DNA from: Clostridia bacterium
GTDB taxonomy: Bacteria > Bacillota > Clostridia > Oscillospirales > Acutalibacteraceae
Length of the DNA stretch: 35,089 nucleotides
Reading direction: 5' to 3'
Assembly: GCA_017475765.1 (NCBI GenBank)
Contig: JAFVEY010000005.1
Span: 1 to 35,089 of the forward strand
Each line of letters begins with the position of its first letter. Within the stretch, counting starts at the first letter, position 1. Made by a program: the position numbers and the translations under genes. Shown in pieces: positions 27,437 through 30,202 of this stretch. Under the pieces are notes generated by a model, which searched no databases, was not told the origin of the DNA, and saw only the letters and a list, made by a program, of their open reading frames with translations.

Positions 27437-27673
27437 TTATTCATAAATACTACCTACATAAAACAAAGTAGCAATAAAATCCCAATTTATGTTTTGAGGT
27501 ATTTCTTTTCCGGTATTGTAATAATAACTTTCCATATCTTCTGTCCAAGATGATACTGATTCCAAATACGCCTTAAAAGATGAATCATTAATAGTTGAAG
27601 CATATATTTCTATAAATTTGATAAAATCTTCTTTGCTATTTATTTTCCCTAACATTTCAATGTGTTTTTCCAT
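27437..27673 (-). CDS. Small acidic protein, DUF7660-like
   Basis: 78 aa, acidic, beginning MEKHIEMLGKINSKEDFIKF and ending WDFIATLFYVGSIYE. The pattern SWTEDMESYYYNTG followed by IPQNINWDFIA and a terminal IYE is typical of small DUF7660-type proteins found in varied accessory regions. Function unknown. A TAGAAA-17-TATAAT promoter (27718-27746) lies just upstream and overlaps the end of the Rpn tail copy at 27691-27873. AGGTGT precedes the ATG. Confidence 0.65.
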   Translation of the reverse strand: MEKHIEMLGKINSKEDFIKFIEIYASTINDSSFKAYLESVSSWTEDMESYYYNTGKEIPQNINWDFIATLFYVGSIYE

Positions 27674-27690
27674 AGTTACACCTACAAATT

Positions 27691-27873
27691 CTAATCTATC
27701 GCACGAACGACACTTTGATTATAACACACATCATTGCCCGTTTCTAATGAAAGACCTGTCACATTTGCGGTTTCTTCTCTTGCTATCGTTCCGAGTTTGA
27801 GAAGATTGACAGCAATAAATATCTTTTCTTGATACTTTTCATCTTTTACTCTCTCTTCCATAACCTTACACAT
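27691..27873 (-). CDS. Free-standing Rpn C-terminal tail, copy C (3' end replaced)
   Basis: 60 aa from an ATG at 27873 preceded by AAGGTGG (27885-27879) with 5-nt spacing. The first 26 residues (MCKVMEERVKDEKYQEKIFI and six more) are identical to the tail of the full Rpn gene. It then drifts (LLKLGTIAREETANVTGLSLE) and runs into unrelated residues (TGNDVCYNQSVVRAID) encoded by the promoter of the next gene. The 3' end was therefore lost by a recombination whose junction is near 27745. It could be a small antitoxin-like protein, an orphan tail cassette, or debris. Confidence 0.6.
   Translation of the reverse strand: MCKVMEERVKDEKYQEKIFIAVNLLKLGTIAREETANVTGLSLETGNDVCYNQSVVRAID
27718..27746 (-). 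promoter_or_regulatory. Promoter of the DUF7660-like gene
   Basis: Minus strand TAGAAA (27746-27741), 17 bp ending TGTGT, TATAAT (27723-27718). Same geometry as the TAGATT-type promoters at 29639, 31678 and 32681, with a similar sequence after the -10 (ATCAAAGTGT). Confidence 0.55.
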
Positions 27874-27883
27874 ACAATCCACC

Positions 27884-28048
27884 TTATACCGGAACTGATT
27901 TTAACTCATTTTGAATCTGATCAATCATTTCCAATGATAATCCTGTGATTTTTGCAATATCACTTTTTGATACTGTACCTAATCTGAGAAGATCAGCGAC
28001 TACCCTTATCATTTGTTCTTTTACTCTTTCTTCCATAACCTTACACAT
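27884..28048 (-). CDS. Free-standing Rpn C-terminal tail, copy B (alternative tail)
   Basis: 54 aa from an ATG at 28048. It begins with the same MCKVMEERVK as the full-length gene and copy C, then has a different tail (EQMIRVVADLLRLGTVSKSD, then IAKITGLSLEMIDQIQNELK, then SVPV). AAGGTGA (28060-28054) is 5 nt upstream and overlaps the stop codon of the Rpn gene (TAAGGTGA), so it should be translated by coupling. Copy B ends two bases before the GTG that opens the copy C frame, with the same TAAGGTG arrangement. The preserved start, frame and ribosome binding site argue against simple debris. Confidence 0.65.
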   Translation of the reverse strand: MCKVMEERVKEQMIRVVADLLRLGTVSKSDIAKITGLSLEMIDQIQNELKSVPV

Positions 28049-28058
28049 ACGATTCACC

Positions 28059-28235
28059 TTATGCCGGAATACCTTTTAATTTCTCGTTAATCTGTTTTAC
28101 AATTTCGATACTAAGACCTGTTAATTCGGCAATTTCTTCGATTGTGTCTTTTCCTCTTTTGAGAAGATTGACAGCAATAAATATCTTTTCTTGATACTTT
28201 TCATCTTTTACTCTCTCTTCCATAACCTTACACAT
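28059..28235 (-). CDS. Putative intragenic C-terminal product of the Rpn gene (RpnS-like)
   Basis: An in-frame ATG at codon 220 (28235) is preceded by AAAGGAG (28250-28244) with an 8-nt spacer, a near-ideal ribosome binding site within the coding sequence. It would yield a 58-aa protein, MCKVMEERVKDEKYQEKIFI onward, equal to the C-terminal tail. The same start sequence heads the two downstream tail copies. In E. coli, short Rpn proteins from internal starts block the toxicity of the full nuclease; this is the parallel I infer. No experimental support is available here. Confidence 0.5.
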   Translation of the reverse strand: MCKVMEERVKDEKYQEKIFIAVNLLKRGKDTIEEIAELTGLSIEIVKQINEKLKGIPA

Positions 28236-28892
28236 ACGATCCACTCCTTTCGGTGTTTCTTTCAAAAATTTCATTATGTCTGCAAACGGAGATAAAACCA
28301 TTTCATCAGCCTTTTTACATCTGAAATCGTGTATCAGCTTTGCAAGGTCTGATGTATCGTCCTTGTTGTCATAAGCACCGTTGACATAGATGATATGCTC
28401 ACCGTCATTAAAGTGCCTGCCTGTTGTAGTGTTTACACGCTCTATCAGGTAAATTGGTTTACCCTCGCCCCATACATCGTTTTCGGTAATGAATATAACA
28501 TAGGTATCAGGCAGGTTTCTGAAATCTTCTCTTGTTTTCAGATTATCAACATCCATTGCTGCCGAGTGATACCTTGCTCTGTGTGCATTTGCTCCATCAT
28601 CTGCTATCTGTACTTCACAGTCATATTGCTTACCATCGCTGTCCTCACCGAACACATCAAGCGTAATGGAACGGCTGCCGAACAAATGCTGTAAATCATA
28701 CTGAGTTTCCTCTTTTGTCAGAACTAAGTCAGGCTTGCCGATGATGATACGAAGCATAAACTGTGCAAGCTCTAAATTATTTCTGAATACTTCTCTCATA
28801 AGGGTATCATCAAGAATTCTCAGCTTTTCAAGTGTTTCCAGATCCTTTTGATGTCGTTCTTCAGGTGTTAGCGGATTTATCAAAAGTGCCAA
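28059..28892 (-). CDS. Rpn-family PD-(D/E)XK nuclease (recombination-promoting nuclease / 'transposase' PF12784 type)
   Basis: 277 aa. N-terminal region NPLTPEERHQKDLETLEKL, then DDTLMREVFRNNLELAQFML, typical of Rpn/YhgA-like proteins. The nuclease motif shows Asp79 in ITLDVFGEDSDGKQYDCEVQ and Glu93-x-Gln95 (EVQ), followed by RARYHSAAMD. The C-terminal tail (about 220-277) carries ITGL-type small helices. The start is a TTG (28892) with AAAAGGAGAG upstream. Rpn proteins are DNA nucleases linked to phage defence, and in E. coli some contain an internal start that makes a C-terminal inhibitor. Here too an internal ATG with a good ribosome binding site exists (28235). Confidence 0.88.
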   Translation of the reverse strand: MALLINPLTPEERHQKDLETLEKLRILDDTLMREVFRNNLELAQFMLRIIIGKPDLVLTKEETQYDLQHLFGSRSITLDVFGEDSDGKQYDCEVQIADDGANAHRARYHSAAMDVDNLKTREDFRNLPDTYVIFITENDVWGEGKPIYLIERVNTTTGRHFNDGEHIIYVNGAYDNKDDTSDLAKLIHDFRCKKADEMVLSPFADIMKFLKETPKGVDRMCKVMEERVKDEKYQEKIFIAVNLLKRGKDTIEEIAELTGLSIEIVKQINEKLKGIPA

Positions 28893-28931: not shown

Positions 28932-28960
28932 ATTATACTATGAATCCGGTGTGTATGCAA
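28932..28960 (-). promoter_or_regulatory. Promoter of the Rpn gene
   Basis: Minus strand TTGCAT (28960-28955), 17 bp, perfect TATAAT (28937-28932), about 40 nt upstream of the TTG start. Confidence 0.65.
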
Positions 28961-29744: not shown

Positions 29745-30017
29745 TTATACAAACTCAATTTTAAGTTTTTTGCCAAGTCCTCTTGCTATGGCTTCAAGTG
29801 TAGGAATATTAGGAATACACATTCCTCTTTCGATACGGCTGATGTTGGACTGCCTGACACCGGATAATTCTGATAATTCCTTTTGTGTCAGATTTTTTTC
29901 TGCTCTCGCCATAACAAGCATACGCATAATTTCATATTCGGTTTGATTATCTTCCCATTCTTTTTTGAATTCAGGATCCTGCAAACTTTCGTCTAAAAGC
30001 ATTTCAAAATCATCCAT
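29745..30017 (-). CDS. HigA-like XRE antitoxin
   Basis: 90 aa. Acidic N-terminal stretch (MDDFEMLLDESLQDPEFKKE), then an XRE helix-turn-helix at about 30-85 (LVMARAEKNLTQKELSELSG, VRQSNISRIERGMCIPNIPT, LEAIARGLGKKL). This is the standard antitoxin of HigBA/RelBE-like pairs whose toxin is encoded upstream. It overlaps the end of the toxin remnant by 8 nt; AGGAG precedes the ATG. The antitoxin is intact, while the toxin has an internal deletion. It probably still represses its own promoter, where a dyad is visible. Confidence 0.88.
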   Translation of the reverse strand: MDDFEMLLDESLQDPEFKKEWEDNQTEYEIMRMLVMARAEKNLTQKELSELSGVRQSNISRIERGMCIPNIPTLEAIARGLGKKLKIEFV

Positions 30018-30202
30018 TGTTCATTCTCCTCTCATAATCAGATTTGTATTTCAATGCATGGTTCTCTCAATTCTGTTCCGAACTCTTTCAGCAGCCCAAT
30101 TTCCTGCAAGGTTTTACGCTTCATTTTCGGCTGTAAACTTTTGATAAATTCAGCAACAGGCTTTGTATCATCTTCTTTTTTATAAAAAACTATTTCAAAC
30201 AT
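30010..30202 (-). pseudogene. RelE/HigB-like toxin with internal deletion
   Basis: Starts at an ATG (30202) with GGAG upstream and encodes 46 normal residues: MFEIVFYKKEDDTKPVAEFI, KSLQPKMKRKTLQEIGLLKE and FGTELREP. The frame then runs into CIEIQI and stops at 30038. In another frame the expected toxin C terminus follows at once, ALKYKSDYERRMNNG and a TGA overlapping the antitoxin start. About half of a normal ~110-residue toxin, including its core strands and catalytic region, is missing between REP and ALKYKSDYE. The toxin should be inactive. Confidence 0.82.

Follow-up and report, generated by a model that had tools for sequence, protein, structure and literature searches.

A putative rpn-type nuclease gene of a gut bacterium, with a probable role in phage defense, lies on the minus strand of the window (the whole 35,089-nucleotide stretch of clostridial DNA analyzed here) and is followed by two free-standing copies of its own C-terminal tail. 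On the basis of sequence comparisons, we consider it probable that this is an RpnL/RpnS-type locus with displaced, exchangeable antitoxin tails, in which the first free tail (B) would be an antitoxin-type domain of another specificity and the second (C) a decaying recombinant. In E. coli, Zhong et al. (2023; PMC10327210) described RpnL/RpnS toxin-antitoxin pairs whose antitoxin is encoded within the toxin gene, and single downstream RpnS genes are also known there (rpnE/ypaA and rpnC; PMC10327210). The two-copy array and its anatomy are new; neither this arrangement nor the displaced-tail reading was found in the literature searched, which included PMC10327210 in those portions of its main text that were available. 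A preliminary description of this DNA knew of no account of such an array, which holds for two-copy arrays within that literature; extragenic antitoxins as a kind are known as single copies from the E. coli genes (PMC10327210).

Organization of the rpn locus

The rpnL-like gene (28059..28892, minus strand) has a TTG start and encodes 277 amino acids, comprising a predicted PD-(D/E)XK nuclease core and a C-terminal tail. With Pfam PF12784 (34.6 bits versus a cut-off of 27.4) and NCBIfam TIGR01784 (53.5 versus 52.1), its product scored above the curated threshold. The genome from which the window comes contains seven PDDEXK_2 matches at an E-value of 0.001, five of them above the cut-off. Among 40 aligned sequences, E93 and Q95 were invariant and D79 nearly so; we take these residues (D ... 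ExQ) to be the PD-(D/E)XK catalytic residues. The AlphaFold2 model of the protein (pLDDT 87.8) has a mixed alpha/beta core, a long helix at residues 214-246 and two shorter helices at 251-258 and 262-273. A Foldseek search with this model returned EndoMS first, with XisH, EcoO109I and BstEII among unrelated matches and no E-value below 0.001; these four proteins presumably share the PD-(D/E)XK fold. A sequence search of the PDB gave no credible relative of the nuclease core, and PADLOC (PADLOC-DB version 2.0.0, 2023) gave no family for the nuclease at an E-value of 0.1. Upstream of the gene, a possible promoter (TTGCAT, 17 nt, TATAAT; 28932..28960, minus strand) was noticed by eye, and a similar sequence is present in G022, a genome carrying a 91% identical orthologue of the window gene followed by one free tail. 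This candidate was absent from the promoter scan output, and its -35 hexamer agrees with the consensus at only 3 of 6 positions.

The last 58 codons of the gene form tail A (28062..28235, minus strand), a putative intragenic rpnS-like frame pointed to by its Shine-Dalgarno sequence, codon conservation and predicted helices, which starts at an internal ATG at 28235. The Shine-Dalgarno sequence and its spacer (AAAGGAG plus 8 nt; 28236..28250, minus strand) double as codons for K-G-V-D-R. Conservation of this site was evaluated in the 119 distinct parent genes that carry a Gxxx[MV]C motif, parents lacking the motif being left out. The glycine codon that forms the Shine-Dalgarno sequence was GGA in 89 of them, versus 36.9 (31%) expected from the same ORFs, and four other conserved glycines of the same genes, used as a control, were encoded by GGA in 15-36%. 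A binomial p-value overstates the strength of this bias because the sequences are related, but the contrast with the control glycines is independent of it. With a generous motif list, an SD-like motif was found at the internal start of 118 of the 119 parents. Judging from codon choice, the internal start is conserved at the DNA level, beyond the protein. In one relative (L199; G485:C18, 823-1626) a stop codon overlaps the internal Shine-Dalgarno sequence, so that core and tail are separate ORFs, a natural two-ORF form. The family matches, the codon conservation and the E. coli precedent, as reported in PMC10327210, together support the earlier proposal of an Rpn toxin with an internal antitoxin start.

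Two further ORFs lie downstream from tail A on the same strand, namely tail B (27884..28048, 54 aa), a complete three-helix domain, and tail C (27691..27873, 60 aa), and MCKVMEERVK opens both. Each has a ribosome binding site, TAAGGTG, that overlaps the preceding stop codon, with 10 nt between stop and ATG at both the A/B junction (28049..28061, minus strand) and the B/C junction (27874..27886, minus strand). Three helices are predicted in A as in B, and in the model of tail B (pLDDT 83.7) they span residues 3-23, 28-35 and 39-50. Foldseek gave no significant PDB match for this model, and RpnAS (7TH0) was absent among the 50 matches listed. As a separate observation, residues 23-49 of tail A match PDB entry 8vd6, annotated 'CAP REPEAT', in five stretches (E-value 9.3e-11), and the helix 2-3 unit may thus occur as a tandem repeat protein.

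The two free tails relate to tail A in different ways. Tail C is identical to A over 26 residues (78/78 nt) and then diverges sharply (45/96 nt); such an exact 78-nt repeat inside 500 nt is far beyond chance. The helix 1 of C has the same length as that of A, but its normal tail end and third, last helix are missing and the frame reads into other sequence. C is therefore mosaic, a within-tail recombinant with helix 1 from A, then sequence resembling the free tail of G022, then a truncation. Tail B shares 51/66 nt with A in helix 1, which is four residues shorter than in A, and 55/96 nt beyond it. Re-reading of the sequence bore out the preliminary description on the ORF coordinates, the internal ATG, the AAAGGAG at 8 nt, the common heads, the TAAGGTG over the stops, the 26 residues shared by C and its parent, and the divergence of B from A after the head. 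The shortened helix 1 of B and the lost end of C had gone unmentioned in that description.

Other features of the neighborhood were recorded. A DUF7660 protein (57.8 bits; 27437-27673, minus strand) directly follows the truncated copy C. Behind the free tail of G022, inspection by eye showed a terminator-like hairpin that the terminator scan output did not list; none was seen at window positions 27437-27673. On the other side of the locus (29745-30202, minus strand), a Gp49-like ORF of 54 aa is followed by an HTH_3 protein, an arrangement resembling a toxin-antitoxin pair of HigBA type in which the toxin is shortened; the Gp49 match is weak, below the cut-off, and covers the first third of the profile.

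Distribution of free tails in related genomes

To follow up the suggestion in the preliminary description that rpn loci of relatives be surveyed for downstream tails, we analyzed loci from named genome contigs (the best 80 of at least 545 confirmed relatives) and from further genomes, with matches in 13 of 64 searched in the same genus, 34 of 398 in the family and 32 of 394 in the order. The tail counts cover the fetched loci, a subset of all matches. They rest on 138 distinct parents, obtained by removing duplicates and 16 parents with less than 400 nt of downstream sequence. Free tails were found downstream on the same strand in 14 of the 138 parents, the window included, and none was found upstream (0/138) or on the opposite strand (0/138). 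Since only 14 of the 138 loci have them, such copies are not needed. Several copies fall outside this set: that of L097, which includes the core; that of L045, a weak remnant; and those with a parent interrupted at a contig end or falling short of the core threshold with flank (L013, L194, L195 and others). Tails with little or no preceding core were also seen in G055, G014, G708 and G775 (L018, L020, L188 and L190).

Two downstream tails were present in 3 of the 14 loci: the window, L111 and L050 (Ruminococcus sp. YE71). In L050 (3819-4647), two open free tails come after a second nuclease core that is broken. L194 (G784:C96, 3212-3837) has three consecutive tails, with Shine-Dalgarno sequences, at the end of a contig, where the parent core is cut off. 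These loci bear on the explanation that the B-C array is an assembly artefact in which strain variants of a locus with one copy, like that of G022, were joined. The assembly comprises 81 contigs, of which the window is one, so that misassembly at the 78 exact nucleotides shared by A and C is possible. Two more contigs of the same genome (G000 contigs C23 and C39; L003 and L006) end inside short repeats of other rpn-like genes, and such repeats therefore probably break assembly. We nevertheless regard an artefact as very improbable, because L111 and L050 have independent two-copy arrays and G784 has its three tails and because the A-B-C stretch has a single further match in its own genome, of 61 nt at 79% identity.

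Carriage by mobile elements was also considered. A mobile-element reading of B and C was rejected on account of that same single genomic match. Plasmid carriage was rejected as well, the three plasmid records found all being below 60% identity. Matches came from 6 phage records and 8 viral contigs. A transposase reading is ruled out on grounds published by Zhong et al., as given in the available part of their article (PMC10327210); in the present locus the repeated unit is the tail alone and not the whole rpn gene.

Divergence, decay and exchange of the tails

We compared free tails with the tails of their parents. Helix-1 lengths were derived from alignment gaps, with the gap runs of six loci recomputed, and could be scored in 19 of 23 parent-copy pairs; L129 and L163 (both broken), L141 (ambiguous start) and L194 copy 2 (aligned to copy 1) were left out. 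The length differed in 11 of the 19 pairs, and all 11 differences were multiples of four residues, ranging from 4 to 48. It was equal in the other eight, and the copy of L048 is identical to its parent at 57 of 62 residues. These likenesses agree with a dose model, in which B and C would be extra cognate antitoxin copies coupled to the toxin gene and would raise the antitoxin:toxin ratio. The coupled ribosome sites with their 10-nt spacing fit such a role, as does the helix 1 of C, which is exactly that of the toxin. When all tails were compared, 7 of the 15 copies whose parent is in the set matched their own parent best (L013, L044, L048, L078, L176, L178 and window C), as would be the case for plain duplicates.

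The remaining eight copies score better elsewhere. Tail B had its top score with the toxin-borne tail of L043, from another Ruminococcus (52.5 bits), its own parent ranking fifth (41.2 bits), in a comparison of only 54 residues. For the copy of L080, the own parent ranks 57th. The best match of L111 copy 2 was the toxin tail of L106 (85.5 bits), with L111 copy 1 close by (85.2 bits); L106 and L111 come from one assembled genome (Lapin-023 bin7). Extra dosage is opposed by the helix-1 lengths, since B and 10 other copies differ from their parents by multiples of four residues, and one extra 4-residue repeat abolished inhibition between RpnC forms, according to the available text of PMC10327210. 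C, in turn, has no helix 3. We therefore hold the dose model to be unlikely, and the view in the preliminary description that B and C expand the antitoxin set of this very toxin becomes doubtful, with B off by one 4-residue unit in helix 1 and C without its third helix. The likeliest reading of B is that of an intact domain of antitoxin type with a predicted specificity other than that of the present toxin.

We estimated constraint on the copies from parent-copy dN/dS. Sixteen comparisons yielded a value, and nine of these lay below 0.5: L013 (0.33), L048 (0.21), L078 (0.23), the two copies of L111 (0.13 and 0.33), L141 (0.14), L195 (0.07), L176 (0, with 5 synonymous and 0 non-synonymous changes) and L194 copy 2 versus copy 1 (0.16). 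A low ratio may stem from recent copying of a constrained parent and not from selection on the copy. The ratio exceeded 0.5 in the other seven, namely window B (0.73), window C (0.57), L036 (0.54), L044 (0.52), L080 (0.63), L132 (0.70) and L162 (0.55). Decayed copies were also identified: truncated window C, the broken copies of L129 and L163, and broken remnants of the copy of L041 in L043 and L045. Together with the 0.73 of window B against A, these could suggest that the free tails are inert debris, that is, tandem copies left by recombination at a gene end that is rich in repeats and changes fast, with frames that stay open only through being short and young. Against debris of this kind stand the SD-like motifs, which precede all but two of the 28 free tails (the exceptions being the copy of L041 and the broken one of L163), the nine low dN/dS values, and the detection of the YpaA protein (free RpnES) in E. 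coli, reported in the consulted portion of PMC10327210; we find it rather improbable. The spread of dN/dS and the presence of some decayed copies indicate that free tails are neither uniformly constrained nor mostly broken; predominant frameshifting, which the preliminary description had named as the opposite result, was not the outcome of the survey.

Exchange is indicated by L041 and L043, whose cores are 94% identical at the protein level while helices 2-3 are only 27% identical. The DNA flanking the tail is homologous on both sides, including the start of a downstream copy; by eye, the tail of L041 is of the window A type and that of L043 of the window B type. In the 181 pairs whose core identity reached 90% or more, identity averaged 0.76 over helices 2-3, versus 0.85 over the least conserved 33-column window of the core and 0.90 over the first nine tail residues; in 114 of these pairs, helices 2-3 were less alike than that core window. 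As far as these alignments tell, tails are exchanged on conserved cores. The idea of a reservoir of exchangeable tails, put forward in the preliminary description, gains support from these very different tails on 94% identical cores and from the one-gene E. coli loci described below.

Proposed model and comparison with known systems

In the displaced-tail model that we favor, a PD-(D/E)XK DNA nuclease would act as a toxin and would be restrained by a short protein translated from the internal start in its own tail, the long first helix of which would serve as dimer and recognition element. Duplication or replacement of the tail region would leave the older or alternative tail downstream with its own ribosome site. 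B, as a former or alternative tail, could neutralize related RpnL toxins and could recombine back into the toxin; C would have received its helix 1 from A while its 3' end decays. The toxicity of the nuclease, translation from the three starts, the activity and specificity of the antitoxins and the order of events are all inferred from sequence. A more general proposal, which we offer tentatively and as a possibility that is somewhat against the odds, is that Rpn loci are tail-exchange systems. The tail would be replaced as a cassette and the displaced tail kept as a coupled gene, and this record, growing with each former specificity, would both protect the cell against RpnL toxins bearing older tails and template the rebuilding of the dimerization helix of the toxin by gene conversion, a template role to which mosaic C and the one-gene E. 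coli strains point.

Should the free tails represent former specificities that were displaced, a readable record of antitoxin change would be kept in Rpn loci. The fast variation in RpnS repeat number would then become testable by pairing free tails with toxins of matching helix length, and orphan RpnS genes (ypaA, or short 'hypothetical' ORFs behind rpn) may provide immunity against other alleles and not act as spares.

We analyzed the rpnE locus of E. coli in the same way. In K-12, ypaA begins 12 nt after rpnE, with AAAAGGAG touching the rpnE stop, and carries one extra 4-residue unit. Twenty E. coli rpnE loci, picked to span match lengths and not at random, comprised 14 two-gene and 6 one-gene loci. 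The toxin tail was of type P and the free tail of type S in 12/12 scorable two-gene loci of the 14 (in L227 and L228 the toxin tail fits no scoring pattern), and this unlikeness of type also speaks against extra cognate copies. Repeat number was unequal between toxin and free tail in 12/12 loci, in 10 distinct combinations; with 0.75 equal pairs expected by chance against 0 seen, this mismatch is no evidence of selection for mismatch. In all 6 one-gene loci, BL21 included, type S was fused to the toxin, with cores 98-99% identical to that of K-12. We infer that the E. coli free tail would be one that the toxin can carry as an alternative. Zhong et al. (PMC10327210, available text) already mention that the separate gene can be lost through deletion or fusion.

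The clostridial locus can be set beside three known systems and would work as that of E. coli does. The rpn gene of Clostridioides difficile tested by Zhong et al. is likewise Gram-positive and, expressed in E. coli, gives an RpnS from a predicted internal start, but the available text of PMC10327210 mentions no downstream tail array for it. With E. coli RpnL/RpnS, the window locus shares the nuclease core, the internal Shine-Dalgarno sequence and start, the 4-residue steps in helix 1 and the Shine-Dalgarno sequence of the free tail at the toxin stop. It differs in having two downstream copies, whereas each of the 14 two-gene E. coli loci has one; moreover, RpnE is not matched by the clostridial core profile, and the tail head is MTIAERL in E. 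coli but MCKxMEE in clostridial tails.

In Rhs and CdiA systems, old C-terminal modules are displaced downstream of a conserved core as orphan tips, by recombination at a conserved head. The likeness to the rpn loci is that the displaced module is of the same kind as the fused one, on the same strand, and downstream only (14/138 against 0/138 elsewhere). They differ in that the module exchanged here would be an antitoxin-type domain, where those systems have a toxic tip and an immunity gene apart from it; for the rpn loci, nothing suggests export. The Rhs/CdiA comparison is therefore meant as an analogy and not as membership.
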